Source of the DNA: Ulota crispa
Lineage: Eukaryota; Streptophyta; Bryopsida; Orthotrichales; Orthotrichaceae
Length of the DNA: 64,000 bases
Direction of reading: 5' to 3'
NCBI GenBank assembly: GCA_963920765.1
Contig: OY987245.1
Coordinates: forward strand, 4,790,727-4,854,726
Below are positions 6,582-61,209 of this stretch, piece by piece (the first letter of the stretch is position 1; the number at the start of each line of letters is the position of its first letter). The translations under genes and the position numbers were made by a program. Under the pieces are notes generated by a model. That model was not told the DNA's origin, ran no database searches, and saw nothing but the letters and a program-made list of their open reading frames with translations.

Positions 6582-7190
6582 CCCCTAATGTCCAAAGCAC
6601 TTTTTGAGCTTCTAGGAATCTTTTCCAAGTTGAAAAAAAAGTTAAAACTTTAATAAGTTGTATTAGCTTTAAGAAAAAAATTGTAGCCGTACAAAATCAA
6701 ACTACATATGTTAGAAATTACATAGGAAAAAAAATTCAACAATATCATTTATGGATTGAAAGATTAGAATGCTTCATTAAGAGGGTATTAAAATTGTGAA
6801 AATGACTTGAAGTTATTCAATCCTCTCCTCACATGTCAAATTTTTAAAAAATAGTCAAATGAAAAATATGGGGCTAAAGGATATAACATACATAACTCCA
6901 ATCAATTTACAGCTTTTCAAAGTCTCTTCTACAATTTTTTTAAATGAATTTCTAGTGTGATTTTTTCTCCAAGGTCTCGTGTACAGTATTTGAGGCTCAT
7001 ATCCAAGAGCTCTCAACACAAAAAAAGTCAAGATTGCAATGGACACCCAAGCACAAAATCTTGAATTAAACAATCATAATCAATCATTTACAAAATTGGT
7101 TTTTGATACTAAAAATAACAACTTTGTTGGGTTTTATAGAAGTTCAAACTATTGTCAACACCATAATGTGGTGCCTTGGGCATTTAGGGG
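6582..7190. mobile_element. TTAA-flanked element (piggyBac-like), family B
   Basis: The ends are CCCCTAATGTCCAAAGCAC and the inverse of CCCCTAAATGCCCAAGGC, with perfect TTAA on both sides (6578-6581, 7191-7194). It is 609 bp. It shares an internal block (AAAATGACTTGAAGT and the GATTAGAATG region) with the elements at 48,396 (inverted) and 58,007. Confidence 0.8.
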
Positions 7191-10467: not shown

Positions 10468-10495
10468 CGCAGCTGAGAGCTGATCAAGCGAGAGC

Positions 10496-13400
10496 ATGGC
10501 AGCCGCGGAGTTGAAGCCACAGCAACAGCAGCAAGGGGGGGTGGTGGTGTGCGGTAGCAGGATGGTGAGGGTGCTGATGGTGCTGCTGGCGTTGGGCCTG
10601 TCGGTGTACACCATCGCCCCCGCCGTCTACTGGCATGTGGTGGCGGAGGACGGCGATGTGCTCACGCAGTGGGTGTTGCAGTGCCCGCCCTGCTCCTCCG
10701 CCTCCGATTGCAGCAACTCTTCCCCTTCCCCTGATTCCCTTGCTGATAGCGCCTCCAAACTCCTAGGTCAGTGCTTTTTCCCACACCACCCCTCCTTCTC
10801 CATTGCAGTTCATTTTCTAGGTTTGTGCTTGCTCGTCTCTCTATACACAACTCTTACAACACAGTGCTTCGCAACAGAACTACCTTTTCCCCTGTAGAGC
10901 TCTTGAAACCAGCCGGCATTACTGTTGCTGTGATAAAAGCCTTTTCATGCACTTTACCTCGGAAATGGCTGTGAAGTTAGGTTTTTATATGTACACTAGT
11001 TCAAACGCTTGTGCTTTGCAATGCATTGTGAGCAGCTTTCTGGTATGTTATAGTACTCTTCCATTTCCATAGCCATAATAGCATAGTTAGACTTCTACAC
11101 TAGTTCAAATGCTTGTGCTTTGCTTTGCATTGTAGGCCGCTTTTTGGTATTGTTATAGTACTCTTCTATTGCCGTAGCCAAAATATCATAGCAAGGGTAC
11201 TAATCTGTCGGTATATTTCCCTTTTACACAACCCTTGGAGAAATGCTTTAGTTTTGCATAGTTTGGTTTTACGTGTTAATGAGAAATGTACTAGGTGACT
11301 AAGGTGAGAAGGCGAAAGGCAATTTTTCTCAGAATCTGCTGTTGATAAATGTGACTTTAGCGACAAGGGGGTGGGGAACTGTTATATGGAAGTGAAAGAG
11401 TAACTCTTTGAAGCTTTCTAAAGGTTTATGTAGTGCTACTTGGCATTGGGATTGAGACTCTGACGTGGCACTTGTTGGTTGTGATGTTGGGCTGGCCCCA
11501 CTGGTGTGAGTCGCTTTTGAAGGAGTGAACTAGGAGAAACTTGCTTTATTATCTTTCAATAGAGAGAATTAATGGACCTCTTGTTCTTCTTGGTTTTTGA
11601 CTCCTCGTTTTTGTGATGGTGTTGCAGGACTTGCACAGAAGTTGAATTCTACTCCAACAGGTGCGCATGGTTCTTCATTTTGCTGCTGCTTTTTTGTACT
11701 ACACCGTGTTTTGCTGTTGTTTGCAAGCTTAGAGTTAGTTCCCATTCCTCGATTTATTAGCTCAAAAAAAAAACTTTCTCCCTTTCTATCCTTTTTCAGC
11801 CATGATATGGACTAGGTAACTAGCAAGAGCAACCAATGACTAGTTAAGCAGCAGAAAACTCCCTCTAACTCGCCATCTCTCACTCATTAACCCGAGCACT
11901 ATTGGCAAAAAGAGGGAAAATTCACAACCGCAAGAAAAAAAATTGACATTTTCTAAATAACTCAAAGAGTGTCAACACTGGAAAGGTCACACCTCTCGTG
12001 TCATATGGGTGTCATGTGCAAGTGTCATTTACTTCATAAGTTTCGACTAGAATGTGCACAATTTGCATTAAAAGCGTCAAAGCTCATCAGTCCCGTGTAT
12101 ACAACCACAAGAAAAGAGAGAGAGAGAAATCATGAATAGACGGTTGGAAGTGAAAATAGTTTTATTGCTTTTGATGACAATGTCCAAGGAAAAGTTGAGT
12201 CAAATCAAGAGCTCTCTGTTGTTGTTAGTCAGCTATTTTCACTGATTGGTTGTGGTTACATATATTTTAAAACTTTGTTCTTTAAAAAAAACGAGTGTTA
12301 CTTTGAAATGCCTGAGTGGATTTTGGTGTTGGAGCATTATCAGATTGCCACGGGAGCAACCGGTGCATGAAGGAATCCATAGCGCAGACGCAAGAGCAGC
12401 TGCAGCGAGAGGGACTCAAACTGCAGAAAGAGGCCAAGGCTGCCCAGCAACGTGCCAGCAGTGCAGCCTACGAGGATGCCAGCAAGAAGACCGTGTACCG
12501 AACTCCAAAGGCTACGCTGGAGAAAGGCTTTTCGGTAAATCATCCCGCCCTTTTTTCATTCATTGAGCTGCTTGCTAGTTTGAGATGTGAGCCATGAGCT
12601 TGGCCCTTTTCTTTTTTTTTGGTCAAAATATTAAATTTCACCTATAATTGTGTACAAAGACCCTATATTAGGCCTGGTTCAAACCTAAAAAGGACGTACC
12701 ACTGGACAAAATGCTTTCTCCAGTGTCTTGTCCACCTTCATTTGGTGGGAAATTGCCATGTCATCATTAATTTTGCCCATCCAGTGGAAGGTTTCACACT
12801 AGGAACCGGATGTTTGGGGGAGTTATAGTTTTGTTCCCACTTGAAATGATTTTGTCTTAACCTCACATGAAGTGAGAGGGAGTGTTTTGTCTAGTAGACA
12901 AGATTTGGGATCACTTTGGGAGGTGACCGCAAATCTTGTTCACTATAAGTGAATTCTTCATCAATTTTGATAGGAGTGGGTGATGACATGGCATTTATGC
13001 CCAGTAGCCGTCTGCTTCACTATGAAAACTTTAGTGGACAAAACTCTCAAATTGGTCAATAAGAGGATTCTAACTCTTGTCCACTTCCTACTTTGAACCT
13101 GCCCTAATTGTGCATGTTAAACTTTCAGCTCTTGAAAAACTTGCTCTTTTTTTAGTTTTTTTCATTAATTTTGAACTCAAAATTGGTTCCCGCTCACAAA
13201 ATTTTGGCTCAAAGCTCACCATTTTACGCTGACAAAATAACGTTGTCCATTTAAGATACATCCATTGCTATGCCCTTGAATCCCCTCCTCTCCGGCTCTC
13301 CGGTACATAGTCCTCATCAAATTTTCCATTATACGAGGTTTATTGTCCTCTTCGTTAATGTCACCAAAATATGCACCCAGATTACTAAAGTTGGGAAAAC

Positions 13401-23060: not shown

Positions 23061-23315
23061 CTCGTCATTAAGTTAAGCTTACAGCAAAGAATGAGCCCGC
23101 CGCGAGTTTTTCAAACTTGTTCCCAAAGAGATTGACTTTTTACATTCCGTTGAAGGGAGTACTGTACCACCGCATTAGTGTTTTATCATTTTGTAGGTGA
23201 AACTGTCAACAAATGTTGAAAGAAGTACTTTTAAAGCATTTGCAAAGCATCTAACTTAGTTTTTTTTTGTTTGCAAAGCATCTAACTTAGTTTTTTTTGG
23301 TTTGCAAAGCATCTA

Positions 23316-24073
23316 AGGTGGAATCACCCATATCCGATAATTTATCCCCTGAGCGCCCAGCCGTTAGACTTCATTGCAAACAATTTTTCACTAGAAGTTC
23401 AAAAACAACATCTGGAAGAGTTAGCTGTTGATATCGCACGAAGCTTATGGTCCAACCCCATATTCGATCAATATGGAGTTGTCAGTTACATATGGAGTGT
23501 ATTTGGACCAACGTAAAGTCTAGATACACTCCATATATAACTGATAGTGAACTCCATATTGATCAAATATGCAAACTCTGCATACGTATGAAAATTTTGG
23601 TAAGTTTTTGTTGCATGGATCAAAAGATTACAATAGTCAAAGACAACAAATCATAAAATATGGACAAGCCACATTCTGGCATGTGGGGCTTCCAGGGGTT
23701 AAGCGATTCTGCATAAAACTACAAAGAGTTTGAGGCAAAAAAAAATGTTTCCAATGTAGGAAGATAAGAAATATTGGGATTACAATTTTTTCATAATTTT
23801 ATTTGCAAAACTGAAATTATTATGAATTTTGGGAGTCAAAAAGTGTTCCACACCCATTGCCAATGTCAAAATGTATGCAACTCCGATAACAGCCAAACTA
23901 ATTTTAGCTCATTACTTCCTACCTCACTTTGGGACATGTGGCATGACTTAAGTAGCCCCAACCTTGAAAAAGTCAAAAAAACGCATTCCAAAGCACCTAT
24001 CCTTGCTCATGGTGGAAATAGCACACCCTACTAGTTGAGAATGGCGCGTTGTTGGCAATGGGTGCTTCCACCT
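23316..24073. mobile_element. TA-flanked MITE, AGGTGGAAGCACCC family, copy 1 (interrupted)
   Basis: Starts AGGTGGAATCACCCATA and ends with the inverse of AGGTGGAAGCACCCATTGC, with TA on both sides (23,314-15 and 24,074-75). Without its nested 353-bp insert it is about 400 bp, the size of the intact copy at 39,144-39,533, which it matches through the ACTACAAAGAGTTTGAGGCA and GTGGCATGACTTAAGT blocks. Confidence 0.8.
23346..23698. mobile_element. TTAA-flanked MITE (piggyBac-like) with internal hairpin
   Basis: The ends are CCCCTGAGCGCCCAGCC and the inverse of CCCCTGGAAGCCCCAC, flanked by TTAT (left, one change) and TTAA (right, 23,699-23,702). It interrupts the TA-type MITE 23,316-24,073 at a place where the intact copy (near 39,170) has one TTAA. 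Positions 23,455-23,573 contain an inverted repeat of about 50 bp per arm around ATCAATATGGAGT and ACTCCATATTGAT. Confidence 0.82.
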
Positions 24074-24099
24074 TAGTTTTTTTGTTTGCAAAGCATCTA

Positions 24100-34642: not shown

Positions 34643-35568
34643 CCCCTAAAGGACCATTGTCACTTTGGGGGACATTTGGGATTTCAAGCATGTACCTATG
34701 GCTAAACTACTTTGCATGATTTTTTGAAACTTTTATCAAAGGTGAGGAATTCAAAGATCTACGTGGGAATGTAATTTTTTCTTCATTTTGACATTTATTG
34801 AAGAAGTTATGTATGAAAATATAGAAAATGCTGCTCCCTGGGGGGCCAAAAACTTCTTAAAAAATTTCATTTTTTTCAAATAAAAACCCAAAATAGGTTC
34901 TTTAGACTTATATAGAAGTGGGGAGCTTTGAATCATTCAATTATGATAGATGAGATGAAAGTTATGAGGAGTTTTTGTTTACGGGCAGTTCTAGATTCTC
35001 TACTCTAAAAAAACTTTGAAGTCCTTTATTTTACTCAATTTTCATTATTTTGGAAAAAAAAAAAAAAAAAACCAAAGGATGTAGATTGTTTCTCACAACA
35101 TCACAACTTTTGGGATTTTCATTTTTCATTTTAATAATTAGATTATCAACAATGTAGTGTTTTGACTCATTTTCTACTTCTTTTTACTTACTACTTTTTC
35201 CCATGTGTTGTATAGTTCCAATTGATTTGAAAATTCTCCCACACATACCTAACTTGGTCTCCTACATGGGAAAAATAAACCTCAACTTTGTATAGGGTAA
35301 ATTTTTTGATCTAAGAGTGGTCAAAGCCTTTTGAAATTTTTGGGCAGTAGCAAAAAAACGCTTTTTTTTGCAATTCAGATGTAAATATCTCACTCCATTT
35401 TATGTAGATTGAGCTAATTTTTTACCACGTGTACCTCTTGTAGTCTACTATAAGATCTTACAGTTGATTTCTTGTAAAAAACTTTTTTTCTTACCATTGT
35501 ACTTGCTTCCTCAAAAGTGGCAATTTTTAGTGTTTTTTGCAGAAAAAATGGCTTGGTCCTTTAGAGGG
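34643..35568. mobile_element. TTAA-flanked element (piggyBac-like), family A1
   Basis: Left end CCCCTAAAGGACCATTGTC preceded by TTAA (34,639-42). The right end GGTCCTTTAGAGGG is decayed and followed by CATA. It is 926 bp and runs opposite to its close relative at 50,206-51,128. An open frame of 61 codons (34,936-34,751, minus) recurs in that relative with about 80% identical residues, but only because the element itself is conserved. Confidence 0.75.
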
Positions 35569-39143: not shown

Positions 39144-39533
39144 AGGTGGAAGTAGCCATACCCAATAACTTAAGCAGTTTTACAACAAACTACAAAGAGT
39201 TTGAGGCACAAATACTTTTCCTATGTAAATACAAAATATTGGGATTGTAGATTTTTCATACTTTTATTTGCAAAACTGAAATTATTATGAATATTGGGAG
39301 GCAATAAGTGCTTTGAATCCATTGCCACCCTTTAGACTCATGCAATTTTGATAGTAGCTAAACTATTTTGTGCTCATCACTTCCTACTTCACTTTGAGAC
39401 ACGTGGCATGACTTAAGTGGTCCCAAACTTAAAAAGGACATAGAAACGCATTCCAGCACACCTATCCCTAGATAGCGCACCCTATTGGTTGGGTATGGGG
39501 AATGGGGCATTGTGGCTATGGGTGCTTCCGCCT
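39144..39533. mobile_element. TA-flanked MITE, AGGTGGAAGCACCC family, intact copy
   Basis: Starts AGGTGGAAGTAGCCATA and ends with the inverse of AGGCGGAAGCACCCATAGCC, with TA on both sides. It is 390 bp and uninterrupted. It provides the empty sites (ACTTAAGCAG near 39,172 and GACTTAAGTGG near 39,411) that show where TTAA-type elements entered the copies at 23,316 and 50,080. Confidence 0.82.
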
Positions 39534-40326
39534 TACCTTACAATAAGTTGTAAGCCTTTATATCTTTCACCAACTGCCTGGCTAGAGCACTAGATAGATC
39601 CCGAATGATGAGTACATGGACTACAACATTCACTCAGTGATGGCTGTCCTTTGTCAAGTACATTTTGTCCGGCAAAATGAGTAGTTGAATGTGTCCTTGA
39701 TCTATGGGGAAGTGACACGTTTCATCCCGACTTTATACATACCACAAGCTTGAGCTTTGAAATGCAGTAAGCTTTTGAGCAAGAAAAAGGATTGAGCAAT
39801 ACGAAAGAGGTGAAGGCATTATAGGTGAGATGTCTTTCTTACGAGTTACGTTGTGCAGCAACAATTACAAAGCCGCTGCACTACAGCCACGCATGTAATA
39901 AACTCCACTGCGTCATCAACTGAGAAAACCCAGTCATCAATGGACACAGATAACGACGATTGTTTGTAAGAGTGAGATCTAAGGTGTCACAGAAAACTTA
40001 TAAAAGCTGCCTACGGTACGAGAAAATTGTGTTAAAAAGAGAATAATAACTTATGAATTACAGCTATACCGAGCATCCTAGCCTCTGCTAGAGACTTGGA
40101 AAATAATCTATTCACACTTACGGAATAAATACCAAATGAGGGGATGGAAGGTAGTAGAGTCCCTTGACTGCTTTGTCTTGTATTTGAAAAAGCTCTAATG
40201 GGGAAGACAAGGGCTCGCGACTAGGTTTGAAACTGGTCTTAAGGAAACCACTCAACATATGCAAACGGAAGATAGGAGCAGGATAAGAAAGCAACCCGAT
40301 CCCACGGAATTAGAAGCAACCAATGA
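39534..40326. other. Downstream region of the methyltransferase-ACT gene
   Basis: No repeat family recognised; moderately GC-rich. Positions 40,100-40,326 probably include the 3' untranslated region. No separate gene seen. Confidence 0.35.
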
Positions 40327-48395: not shown

Positions 48396-49083
48396 CCCCT
48401 AAATGCCGAAGGCACCCAAGGCACCCAAGGCACCCAAGGCATCCAAGGCACCCAAGGCATCCAATTTAGGTGTTTACAAAACTTTGAAGATGAATGAAAT
48501 CTTATTCAATCACTAATTTTTGTATTTCTTTTCATTATAAGTTTGTTTTGAAGTCTATTTTCAGCACCAAAAATCTGATTTTGAAAATGAAAATTGATGA
48601 TTTTTCTGCTCAAGATTTTGTACAAGGGTGACCATTGCAATCTTGAGTTTTTTGGTGTTGGAAAATCTTGAAATTGAGCCTCAAATACACTAGAGCTTGG
48701 AGAAAAATCCACATTAGAAATCCATTTAAAAAATATACAGGAGTAGATTTTGAAAGCTGTAAATTGACTAAAGTTAGGCATGCAATGACCTTAAACCTCA
48801 TATTTTTTTGATGACCAACTTTTTAGATTTGACATATGAAATGAGGATTAAAAAACTTCAAGTCATTTTAGCAACTTTAACACCCTCATGTTCAAACATT
48901 ATAATCTTTCAAACTATAAGTGATATTGTTGTGTTTTCTTTTTCCATGTAATTTCTAACATGTCAAGTTTAAATTTGTACAATTACAGTTTAAAAAAACT
49001 TGATGAGATTTTTGAAAAGGCTGATTGATCGTTCACTCTCCTGAAAATGTCAAGAAGTTTAGAAAAGCCTTGGCATTTAGGGG
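48396..49083. mobile_element. TTAA-flanked element (piggyBac-like), family B, with minisatellite
   Basis: Left end CCCCTAAATGCCGAAGGCACC and inverse right end CCCCTAAATGCCAAGGC, with perfect TTAA on both sides (48,392-395 and 49,084-087). It is inverted relative to 58,007-58,653 and shares its ACTTCAAGTCATTTTAGCAA and TGTTCAAACATTATAATCT blocks. Just inside the left end GGCA(C/T)CCAA is repeated six times (about 48,410-48,463). Confidence 0.82.
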
Positions 49084-50073: not shown

Positions 50074-50205
50074 TTAGCAAGGTGGAAGCACCCATAGCCA
50101 ACAACGTCTCATACCCAACCAATAGGGTGTGCTATTTCCAATATCAACATGGATAGGTGCTTTGAAATGCGTTTCTTTGTCCTTTTCAAGTTTGAGACAA
50201 TTTAA

Positions 50206-51128
50206 CCCCTAAAGAACCAAGCCATTTTTTTTGTGAAAAACACAAAAATTGCCACTTTTGGGGAAGCAAGTACAATGGTAAGGAAAAAAGTTTTTTTATA
50301 CAAGAATTCAACCATAAGATCTTACAGTAGACTACAAGAGGTACACGTGGTAAAAAATCAGCTCAATCTACACAAAAGGGAGTGAATTATTTACATTTGA
50401 ATTGCGGAAATGAGTTTTTTTTTGCTGCTGCCTAGAAATTTCAAAAGGCTTTTACCACTCTTAGATCAAAAAATTTACCCTACACAAAGTTGAGGTTTAT
50501 TTTTCCCATGTAGGAGACCAAGTTAGGTATGTGTGGGAGAATTTTCAAATTAGTTGGAACTATACAACACATTAGAAAAAATAGTAAGTAAAAAGAAGTA
50601 GAGAATGAGTCAAAACACCAAATTGTTAAGAATTTAATTATTAAAATGAAAAATGCAAATCCCAACAGTTATGATGTTGTGATAAAAAATCTACATCCTT
50701 TGGTTTTGTTTTTTTTTCCAAAATAATGAAAATTGAGTAAAATAATGGGCTTCAAAGTTTTTTTAGAGTAGAGAATCTAGAACTGCCTGTAAACAAAAAC
50801 TCCTCATAACTTTCATCTCATCTATCATAATTGAATGACTCAAAGCTCCCCGCTTCTATATAAGTCTAAAGAACCTATTTTGGGTTTTTATTTGAAAAAA
50901 ATGAAATTTTTAAAGAAGTTTTTGGCTGCCCGAAGAGTAGCATTTTCCAGATTTTCATGCATAACTTCTTCAATAAATGTCAGAAAAAAGAAAAAATTAG
51001 ATGCCCACGTAGATCTTTGAATTCCCCACCCTGAGTAAAAGTTTCAAAAAATCACAAAAAGTAGATTAGCCATAGGTACATGCCCAAAATCCCATTTGTC
51101 CCCCGAGGGGACTTTAGTTCTTTAGGGG
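50206..51128. mobile_element. TTAA-flanked element (piggyBac-like), family A1, nested
   Basis: Ends CCCCTAAAGAACCAAGCC and the inverse of CCCCTAAAGAACTAAAGTCC, between perfect TTAA copies (50,202-205 and 51,129-132). The host MITE reads TTTGAGACAATTTAA before and TTAAGTCATGCCATGTG after the insert; its intact relative near 39,411 has a single TTAA joining the same flanks. This is the best proof of a TTAA duplication in the window. Length 923 bp, non-coding. Confidence 0.9.
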
Positions 51129-51382
51129 TTAAGTCATGCCATGTGTCTCAAAGTGAAGTAGGAAGTAATGAGCTAAAAGTAGTTTGGGTGTTATTGGAAT
51201 TGCATGAGTATAGATGTTGGCAATGGGTTCAAAGTACTTTTTGACACCCAAAATTCACTGTAATTTCAGTTTTACAATAAAATTATGAAAAATTTGCAAT
51301 CCCAATATTCCTTACCTTCCTACACAAGAAAAAAACTTGTTTATTGCCTCAAACTCTTTGCAATTTGTTGCATAATCGCTAA

Positions 51383-52149
51383 CCCCTAAAGGACCAAAGA
51401 GCCCAATATGGCCAAAGGGAGTTCTTTGAGGTGTAAAAGTAGAAAAAAAAAGACTTCTCATGCTCAAATTTTGGTCTATCACTCAAGTCCAAATGGAGCT
51501 AAAAGTCCAACAAAACTTTTGGATTGGCTTGTTGTTCCTTGAAGCCTCTAGATTTTGCACCCAAACATTTAAATTTACTATTTTCAATATTAAAACTATT
51601 AGTGGGAGTGTGTATAGGCATTGTACATTGCATTGTGGATGGAGGAATTTTGGATGGGATGGGTTGGAAGCCCACACTCCCATGTATAGGGGAGAAGATT
51701 GGTGATGTGTCACTTTTTTTTTTCTCTTGATTGGGTAAGGTTTTTGTAACTCTATAGTAGTGAGCCAATTAGATCCACTTTCTTTTAATGACCATATATT
51801 TTGGAAATTTTTCCCATTTGAGGAGTTCTTTTTTCCATCAAGTATAGCTAAACACGATCTCATGGGATCAACCATTAGGTTTTTTTTTGGGAAAAAATCA
51901 CATTAAAGTCTAAAGTCCATATTGTGAATTGCTACCCAAATTAACAAATATGAGATTCTCAATGGTGAGGATTTTGCAAATTTACTTGGATTTGAAATCA
52001 GACTAATCTTAAGCTTTGATTTATAATTGGGTATAGAATAACCGGTTTGGATTGTGTGAATACTTGTTCAACTTTTTAAAAATTGAGAGAATGTGTTGAA
52101 AATTCCATATTGAAAGTATGCTAAATTTTCTTCACAAGACGCTTAGAGG
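51383..52149. mobile_element. TTAA-flanked element (piggyBac-like), family C-like, nested
   Basis: Left end CCCCTAAAGGACCAAAGAGCCC preceded by CTAA, right end CGCTTAGAGG followed by TTAA (52,150-153). It sits in the host MITE at the same TTAA that is occupied by a different element in the 23,316 copy. Length 767 bp. Confidence 0.75.
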
Positions 52150-52690
52150 TTAAGTTATGGAATAGGGGTGCTTCCACCTTAGTCTTCCCTCCTCCCACTC
52201 TCAACTTCAGGGTAGGGGCTTTTTTTTTTTTTTCATTTTCATTTATTTGAACTAAGAGGCATCTTTTATATTGTCAAAACCGCATTTTCAAGAGTTTTCC
52301 AATAATGTATTATAGGCTTGATTTGAGTGAAAATTGCTCTGGCAATGGCTCTTCAAAGTGTTAGAGCTACTGGAGCCTGCTGATCTGGCCAAGTACAACC
52401 AGCCATGTGAAACTTCATGAGAATCCACTGCTGCTTCAAGATTACAATTAATTTGCTAATGTTTTTGGTATAATAATGGGGTCCCAGGGTACTTCAGCTT
52501 TGTGGTTACAAGTTGCTTTCCTTTCAAGAATAGTGAATTTGGATAATGGAAGTAGTTTGTTATCAAAATGATAACATGGTTTGTGCGCTTTGTATGCTCA
52601 TAGGTACAGAAGAGAAATGTACTATGACACAACTTTAATGGCTTCTTTAGGCATATGCACTTTGTGATCTTGGACATAGTCCACTCTTAA

Positions 52691-58653: not shown

Positions 58654-58878
58654 TTCACTACCAGGACAAGTGTAAATTTAAGTATACTTAGATGGGTCGT
58701 AGACATTCCCTTAATTATTCCTCTCAAGCACTTTTTGTGACGAATCCGTCTTTGTGTTTTTGAAAAGTGGGATACTCAATGTCCTTAAAATTTGAAAGGC
58801 TGAAATTAAATTTTGTAGCCTCTGAGCATGGTTGCCCAATGTGTCTGTGTATCTGTATATGCATACAAAACATACATA

Positions 58879-59501
58879 TAGGTAGTTTACCCTATTATCA
58901 CTCCGCTCCTATTATCACTTTTCTATCTTCAAAAATTCATGTCTTTTAGAGTTTAGTTTCAAATCCAAATTTTCAAGTATTGCAAGAAAGGCCTTAAAGT
59001 CCTTTACTAATTGTGAAAATTTTTGTTCCATTTGATCAAAATTTACAAAAGATATAGCGTATTAGCTATGAAGACCTTAGTTAGATATACAATTTATTGC
59101 CCCTGCACCTTAGCTAAAGCAATGTCAGTTGCAAAATATCAAAAATAAATGAAAACTGTCAACTAAGTTAGCACTTATGGATGACCATAGAGCTCAAGGA
59201 AAGGTAGAAGTTCAAAGATGAAAATAACAAAATATTATCATGTATGACAATGAAAATTTCTAAGGAAGTGGTAAGGAAGTGATAATAGGGCAATTTCAAA
59301 TTTGAGTTGAACCTTGACCTTACCTCATTGTAACCTTGATAACTATTTCATACTCCAATCATTTAGAAATTTGAAACTTGATACAAAACCTTGACTTGAT
59401 TAACTTTCAGATGAGACCATAACCATGTCATTTGATATATTATAATTATTTTTTTATTGATTTTTTGTTTAAGGCCCAATGATAATAGGATAAACTACCT
59501 G
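58879..59501. mobile_element. TA-flanked MITE, GGTAGTTTACCC family, copy 2, nested
   Basis: Begins TAGGTAGTTTACCCTATTATC and ends with the inverse of CAGGTAGTTTATCCTATTATC, with TA on both sides (58,877-878 and 59,502-503). The other arm of the surrounding long inverted repeat (near 60,990) has the same site empty with a single TA, which proves both insertion and TA duplication. Length 623 bp. Confidence 0.85.
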
Positions 59502-60436
59502 TACACACATGTGCATACACATACATAAGTATAATTTTAGAAGATAAGTATATTATGTGGTTGTTTGATGAGTGAACCCACACAAGAATTTGAGGATATT
59601 GTCTCCAAAAGAAAAAGCTTGTTGTAGACTTATGGTACACTTTTAAATATCAATATCAACTTCAAGGTCAACAAACAAAGTAAATTTTTTTGTTGTCATT
59701 GTTAAAGGCTCCAATTATTTTCAAAAGTGGGTCTTGATGTGATAAGGGAGATGATGATCTAAAGTATCTTGCATGTCTTGCTAAAAACAAAACAAAAAAA
59801 TCTACATCAATATTGGTTGCGTAATAGATCGTAGGAAATGTAGTGATCAAAAACAAAGACAAACCACAACAAGGACAAACTGCATCAAGAAGATGTACAC
59901 TCAACTCTTCCAAGTAGGTGAACATGCAATAGTCAATGTGCATCAAAATTAGATTTAATATTGCAAGCTAGCTTCCAATCATCCATATTGGCCAACACTT
60001 TGGTGGTGGCAATCAATATATGTCACTCCCTCCTCCAACATCATCATCTTGGCACCAAAGCCCATAAAGAAGATCAGTAATGTTCTTTATTTCAACTACA
60101 AAAGGGCACATAGTGGTCTTATCAACATAGGTTTCTCACCTTACAACTAACTTGACCCTTAATAATGACAAGCATAAAAAGCAATAACAAGCATGAAAAG
60201 TTTCAAAAAGTTCTTATGATTTTGACACACAACTGAGCACACAACCCAAGAGTTTTGCTACTATTATGTGTGTCACAATTTACAAATTACATTCTAAATG
60301 GCCTACATTGAAGGTTGATTACTATGGGAATGGATTTGCTATATTCCAATTTACTTAAATGGTGTATTTGTGTTTACCCGAAACTTATAAGCATAACCAA
60401 AGCCACTGTCTCCCTTGAAATTGAGACTACTATACC

Positions 60437-60823
60437 TTGTGTACCAAGCTAAATACGATTATTTTATTGAGTTTTTTCCTTTTGCAATTGCTAATATTTC
60501 CTCATGCATGGGATGCTCATGTTGTTTGTGTGAAAGCACTAATTTTGATGCAAATTGACTATTGCACGTTCACCTACTTGGAAGAGTTGAGTGTACATCT
60601 TCTTGACGCAGTTTGTCCTTGTCGCGGTTTGTCTTTGTTTTTGATCACAACGTTTCCTACGATCTATTACGCAACCAATATTGATGTAGATTTTTTTGTT
60701 TTGTTTTTAGCAAGACATGCAAGATACTTTAGATCATCATCTCCCTTATCACATCAAGACCCACTTTTGAAAATAATTGGAGCCTTTAACAATGACAACA
60801 AAAAAATTTACTTTGTTTGTTGA
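60437..60823 (+). other. 128-codon open frame spanning spacer and arm
   Basis: A hydrophobic N-terminus (IILLSFFLLQLLIF) leads into 92 residues that recur, with about three changes, on the minus strand at 59,946-59,668 because they lie in the inverted arms. No known domain. It could be a remnant of a gene captured by the element, or chance. Confidence 0.3.
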
Positions 60824-61209
60824 CCTTGAAGTTGATATTGATATTTAAAAGTGTGTACCATAAGTCTACAACAAGCTTTTCCTTTTGGAGACAATATCCT
60901 CAAATTCTTGTGTGGGTTCACTCATCAAACAACCACATAATATACTTATCTTCTAAAATTATACTTATGTATGTGTATGCACAAGTGTGTATGTATGTTC
61001 TGTATGCATATACAGATACACAGACACATTGGGCAACCATGCTCAGAGGCTACAAAATTTAATTTCAGCCTTTCAAATTTTAAGGACATTGAGTATCCCA
61101 CTTTTCAAAAACACAAAGACGGAGTCTGTCACAAAAAGTGCTTGAGAGGAATAATTAAGTGATGTCTACAACCCATCTAAGTATACTTAAATTTACACTT
61201 GTCCTGGTA

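Follow-up and report, generated by a model that had tools for sequence, protein, structure and literature searches.

In the moss Ulota crispa, the short elements whose tips read CCCCTAAA are almost certainly non-autonomous (MITE-like) members of the piggyBac superfamily, presumably served by the transposase of elements 5-8 kb in length. PiggyBac transposons are best known from animals and are a standard tool of animal genetics. The window considered here is a 64-kb stretch (C4:4790727-4854726) of the 274.8-Mb assembly GCA_963920765.1, in which the initial annotation had described a MITE copy split by two inserts, each bounded by TTAA or a one-base variant. The features of the window and the coding copies discussed below are collected in Table 1.

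Table 1. Positions of elements, target sites and transposase-bearing copies. Plain ranges are window positions; ranges with a prefix (C1, C2 and so on) are genome positions.
Feature	Position	Size or strand	Ends and flanks	Remarks
Host MITE copy A	23,311 to about 24,081			Empty at element 1 site; filled at element 2 site
Host MITE copy B	39,144-39,533	(+)	Single TTAA at each site	Empty at both sites
Host MITE copy C	50,080-52,179	(-)		Contains two TTAA elements; alignable to copies A and B once these are removed
Element 1	50,206-51,128	923 bp	CCCCTAAAGAACC ... GGGG; TTAA both sides	Non-autonomous piggyBac-type; empty site in copies A and B
Left target site duplication, element 1	50,202-50,205		TTAA	
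Right target site duplication, element 1	51,129-51,132		TTAA	
Element 2	51,383-52,149	767 bp	Right end degenerate; CTAA 51,379-51,382 / TTAA 52,150-52,153	TTAA-type insertion; empty site in copy B
Third TTAA-type element	23,346-23,698		CCCCTGAGCGCCC ... GGGG; TTAT 23,342-23,345 / TTAA 23,699-23,702	In copy A, at target position of element 2; empty site in copy B
Full-length relative of element 1	34,643-35,567			90% identical; aligns to 3' end of coding copies
Short element	48,396-49,083		CCCCTAAATGCC ends; TTAA both sides	Tip type as coding element C5:10867266-10873011
Short element	6,582-7,190		Right tip CCCCTAAATGCC; TTAA both sides	Last 37 bp 84% identical to coding element C5 terminus
Inverted repeat arms	58,742-58,878/60,990-61,126; 59,502-59,640/60,853-60,991; 59,637-59,952/60,539-60,854			
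Bracketed coding elements 1-4	C5:10867266-10873011; C3:13130262-13135288; C10:11524996-11530021; C2:15046195-15051296			
Bracketed coding elements 5-8	C4:4126481-4132490; C8:446266-451851; C1:27657022-27663364; C8:19568194-19573849			
C7 coding element	C7:11814404-11822436	8.0 kb	CCCCTAAA ends; TTAA both sides	
Cysteine-rich C-terminus clear	C3, C10, C4:4129821, C8:19570986, C5:10869739, C2:34594948			
Cysteine-rich C-terminus partial	C7, C5:24512210, C8:11102712			
Cysteine-rich C-terminus not seen	C2:15048720			

The genome contains at least 120 matches to PF13843 (the piggyBac core, DDE_Tnp_1_7), the best with an E-value of 1.3e-73, and none was found in any of 14 control genomes; the count comes from 116 of 528 candidates scored, and a few entries represent fragments of a single copy. 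Only 10 of the 120 matches listed are free of internal stops, and no intact autonomous copy was demonstrated among those listed; one stop-free copy, at C4:3591922, has asparagine at the third aspartate position. One open reading frame matches the solved transposases of piggyBac (6x67, E 3.6e-20) and piggyBat (9c0f, E 1.4e-16), with the first two motifs of the DDD triad aligned to 6x67 and all three regions to 9c0f. At each position of the triad (motifs TVDE / xxDN / GVDxxDQ), 6 of 7 aligned sequences have aspartate; the catalytic aspartates of the insect enzyme are D268, D346 and D447. A C-terminus of the form CxxC...CxxC...C...CF...H, looked for by eye in ten translated copies, is clear in six, partial in three and unseen in one. 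Pfam named no zinc domain in the four open reading frames scanned, which stop before that part of the protein or leave the frame.

Thirteen coding copies, either high-ranking in the list or free of stops, were read together with their flanks. Eight lie between TTAA-type ends (TTAA or single-base variants of it) whose terminal repeat score is 6 or higher; in the control, 33 of 264 overlapping window intervals (12.5%) do so. At a score of 5, 10 of the 13 pass versus 48 of the 264. Since the control is not zero, bracketing by itself is strong evidence but not proof, and the C3 and C10 elements (90% identical over 4.0 kb) belong to one lineage and are not independent. No convincing ends were recognized in the flanks read for C9:16422024 and C2:34594948, nor a left end in the 3.9 kb upstream of C5:24512210 and C8:11102712, and the left end of C4:3591922 is ambiguous, as position 3588228 also pairs with 3589136. 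Since coding elements with bracketing ends measure 5-8 kb, no convincing end was met with when CCCCT[AG]A tips were sought up to 1.5 kb from the transposase core.

The C7 coding element fails the bracketing test because it is longer than the limits set. A left end at C7:11818594 (TCAA, one base missing) was considered and rejected, as the short elements and the empty site point to 11814404. One empty site of C7, with a single TTAA, lies within coding element C5 (219 bp at 77.6%), so that C7 evidently entered a copy of a related element; a second is found on C1 at locus L021 (74.9% over 203 bp). The C7 element itself contains a nested short element (11816416-11817341) and, between the transposase and the 3' end, an 8-bp tandem array (L043 4172-4771, C7:11820871-11821470). 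Elsewhere, an element with CCCCTAAAGGACC and CCCTTAAAGGACC tips (L051 7347-8315, C8:19573846-19574814) directly adjoins a piggyBac coding element at that element's right end, and the two have one four-base site, TCAA, in common.

What decides for piggyBac is the co-terminal homology of the short and the coding elements. Read from its TTAA, element 1 aligns over 370 bp (61.6%) with the C7 coding element at its end, and with its opposite end to the start of C7 over 177 bp (64.4%); the match to the 3' end of the coding copy C8:11102712 runs to 562 bp (72.5%, E 2e-95). That copy and C5:24512210 belong to the same lineage as C7, and their 3' ends read TTAA-CCCCTAAAAGACCAAGCC (C5) and TTAA-CCCCTAAAGGACCAAGGC (C8). 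An 893-bp element at locus L022 likewise matches the two C7 ends with its positions 1-257 and 303-893. Element 1 is thus a MITE in the sense of a short, non-coding element that is co-terminal, here with both C7 ends, with a transposase-bearing one. For other tip types the alignments to coding termini are shorter: elements with CCCCTAAATGCC tips match the C5 terminus (75% over 76 bp and 84% over 37 bp), and the C3 terminus is matched by one element that has a CCCCTCACTGCC tip (84% over 38 bp). No alignment of the 48,396-49,083 element to the coding element C5:10867266-10873011 was reported.

Duplication of TTAA is also a trait of Kolobok, and superfamilies cannot be separated by their tips alone. 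It is nevertheless very improbable that the short elements are moved by Kolobok, or by some other superfamily that duplicates TTAA, and that the piggyBac coding copies are coincidental. For the element 1 family, co-terminal homology to piggyBac coding elements contradicts such a reading; three tip types in all are co-terminal with coding elements (CCCCTAAAGG with C7, CCCCTAAATGCC with C5 and CCCCTCA with C3, the latter two over short stretches of 37-76 bp), and the C7 coding element has TTAA empty sites of its own. On the side of Kolobok, element 2 and the element at 23,346 have no sequence link to any coding copy read and are placed in piggyBac, provisionally, via their tips and TTAA only. 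The initial annotation had read TTAA together with CCC ends as a piggyBac signature and had proposed a search for a DDE_Tnp_1_7 transposase in elements with the same ends. Such PF13843 copies do lie inside such elements, and the piggyBac reading is borne out by co-terminality for the element 1 family; element 2 is linked to it by tips and TTAA only.

The ends themselves occur on a genome-wide scale. TTAACCCCTAAAG is found 17,656 times versus 16 for the reversed pattern, which is not chance, and the wider tip TTAACCCYTNANNGNCC accounts for 31,318 exact ends versus 9 for the reversed control. At two ends per element the latter figure corresponds to about 15,700 elements, a lower bound as mutated ends are missed. 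With the coding elements bracketed by ends of the same kind, terminal inverted repeats beginning CCC(Y)T are a common property of the short and the long elements. The window holds 7 TTAACCCYTNANNGNCC ends, about as many as expected from a genome-wide average of 114 per Mb, and about 14.7% of it (a figure for the window only) is similar to 37 predicted elements, some of them overlapping, taken from chromosome C1 loci. For 19 co-terminal elements, selected at 850-1,010 bp in length, identity to the nearest relative is 49-93% (one overlapping pair excepted), so the community did not arise in one recent burst. The CCCCTAAA tips contain CCCTAAA, the repeat unit of plant telomeres, most likely by coincidence.

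TTAA directly precedes 8,154 (85%) of the 9,597 copies of CCCCTAAAGGACC in the genome (control, 3), where about 1% would be expected from base composition by our own arithmetic. In the window and loci L001-L030 and L041-L046, with selected central matches excluded, TTAA stands before 27 of 33 CCCCTAAAG words; each of its four positions is kept in 29-32 of the 33, with a mixture of bases at -5 and -6. This conservation bears on the possibility that the duplication is one of TA (2 bp) or of 3 bp, with terminal repeats one base longer (ACCCC...GGGGT), in the manner of Tc1/mariner or PIF/Harbinger elements, and TTAA as no more than the preferred context. Starting from an empty TTAA, "TTAA + CCCC" and "TA + ACCCC" yield identical filled sites, so the two are inseparable by sequence alone. 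With all four positions kept, and with a transposase in elements with these ends that is of piggyBac type and targets TTAA, a shorter duplication is hardly credible, less so even than movement by Kolobok.

Duplication of TTAA by piggyBac-type elements is seen most directly in the window, where three copies of the host MITE can be aligned with the inserts excluded. Copy C is split between TTAA/TTAA and CTAA/TTAA, as the initial annotation had it, and its intact relative, copy B, has one TTAA at each matching place; the alignment it had called for also brought out a third insert, in copy A. BLAST with joined flanks recovers empty copies for all three inserts (77-82% over 152-248 bp), and these, with those of the C7 coding element, uphold the claim that insertion duplicates TTAA. 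The claimed CCCC...GGGG ends are likewise supported, by the genome-wide tip counts and by coding elements with the same ends, and the genome copies, when tested, showed TTAA at the frequency given for CCCCTAAAGGACC above. The right end of element 2 (reverse complement of CCTCTAAGCGTC) is degenerate, and no relatives of this element turned up in the sampled sequence. Its similarity to the 23,346-23,698 element is at chance level (best 17 bp, E 0.28); the two are unrelated, so the same TTAA target was struck independently in copies A and C. That the splits are not insertions, and that copy B, alone empty among the three where A and C are both filled at one TTAA, derives from a longer ancestral MITE that lost DNA by deletion or excision, is just as remote as a shorter duplication, since the DNA of A and C at that site is unrelated, full-length relatives of element 1 are present at many other places, and empty sites of further elements are seen in different repeats. 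Precise piggyBac excision would also leave one TTAA, so that the duplication rule holds either way.

Of 118 junction-spanning rows, many were excluded by eye as self-overlaps, duplicated loci or matches of one element within another; the junctions relied on are W 23342, W 50202, W 51379, L024 1501, L030 1546 and X_C7 2405. L002 1501 and L026 1501 were not counted as empty sites, as relatives read CCAA and GTAA, respectively, where the filled copy has TTAA; nor were the L010 matches, in which a clean single TTAA is not found throughout. The host MITE ends in AGGTGGAAGC...GCTTCCACCT (window 23,311-24,081, 39,145-39,535 and 50,079-52,180), and its flanks are TA/TA in two copies and TA/TG in one; the TA flanks suggest a TA-duplicating (mariner-like) family. 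The window also holds a long near-perfect inverted repeat (58,742-61,126), with arms 98-99% complementary, and an open reading frame (10,484-10,894) that matches DUF1068 (PF06364, E 1.3e-5).

By homology to known piggyBac enzymes, the transposase of the 5-8 kb elements presumably recognizes the CCCYTNANNGNCC tips and a subterminal dyad, and would excise the element by cut-and-paste and join it into TTAA, which becomes duplicated; the short elements would be mobilized in trans by the same enzyme. An imperfect dyad lies at about bp 15-33 of one tip in many elements, and its sequence is family-specific (TTGTCCCTTTGGGGACAA, AGCCCACTTTGGGCT, CAAGTGGTTGTTCAACAACCACTTG, CACCCAATTTGGGTG). Inverted repeats with arms of at least 5 bp were found in 43 of 73 distinct ends versus 12.6 on average (18 at most) over 20 shuffles, an excess that is overstated because the shuffles ignore the kinship of the ends and some of the 43 are A/T runs at the other tip. 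A palindrome is bound jointly by two cysteine-rich domains in piggyBac and piggyBat, and that of piggyBat lies at bp 19-30 of the left end, the right end having no counterpart, according to PMC11707139. By analogy, the dyad of the moss elements is the predicted binding site of the cysteine-rich domain.

The initial annotation had set a large TTAA community in the frame of flowering plants. The community stands, on the scale of at least about 15,700 elements, in a plant-type genome; the frame does not, as the host is a moss, in accord with a LEAFY DNA-binding exon that differs at 2 of 90 positions from the 4bhk chain (the Physcomitrium protein) and at far more from 2vy1 (Arabidopsis). A short TTAA element (L053 991-1237, C4:16278428-16278674; CCCCTAAAGGATG ... 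reverse complement of CCCCTAAAGAATG, TTAA/TTAA) lies between two exons of the sole LEAFY gene found and is therefore intronic.

PiggyBac is not absent from the plant literature, where lists and tables name it; no description of piggyBac elements in a moss was found in the open-licence literature among the matches listed. PiggyBac is among the superfamilies in every taxonomic group surveyed, land plants included (PMC4438587), and is named among angiosperm MITE superfamilies in a review (PMC10004981) and among plant superfamilies (PMC10794571); plants are mentioned in lists on piggyBac (PMC8086355, PMC10813416). The main text of the Ulota crispa genome note (PMC11803377) is without the string "transpos", and a match in a moss paper (PMC10619864) was rejected, the matched text being the word "piggybacking".

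The Ulota crispa elements resemble the piggyBac superfamily (PF13843; 6x67, 9c0f) in TTAA duplication, CCC(C/T)T tips, DDD core, cysteine-rich C-terminus and a dyad near one tip, and differ from it in the moss host and the many co-existing tip types. The literature offers further comparisons. The coding elements with recognized ends, at 5.0-8.0 kb, are longer than a well-defined piggyBac of about 2,472 bp (PMC10813416). As with the PiggyBac MITEs mPok1 and mPok2 of Daphnia (PMC4912750), short elements exist beside transposase-bearing relatives; unlike them, those of Ulota crispa have a common size class near 930 bp and 31,318 exact ends. PpTc1 and PpTc2, the Tc1-like elements described in Physcomitrella (PMC4054914), are similarly a group then known from animals and fungi that was amplified in a moss, but belong to the Tc1/mariner superfamily. 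In another non-flowering land plant, the fern Ceratopteris, the PiggyBac row of the repeat table (PMC6890710) carries the same superfamily label and gives 1,230 copies, 122,417 bp and 0.00%. What is known is therefore the piggyBac kind; what is new is the scale, with its striking copy number, and the little-described moss host.

It is possible, if somewhat short of probable, that Ulota crispa harbors a long-lived piggyBac radiation in which several transposase lineages each recognize a family-specific dyad and have their own retinue of short elements. If so, these would constitute a natural series of matched pairs of zinc domain and DNA site, and piggyBac would be a leading shaper of this plant genome, with about 15% of the window touched. 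In the plant papers considered here, piggyBac is no more than an entry in lists and tables. With 31,318 exact ends and at least 120 transposase matches, this moss genome gives plant biologists a native system, and it gives students of piggyBac a dense natural series, of ends as well as transposases, from which to learn how the cysteine-rich domain chooses its site.
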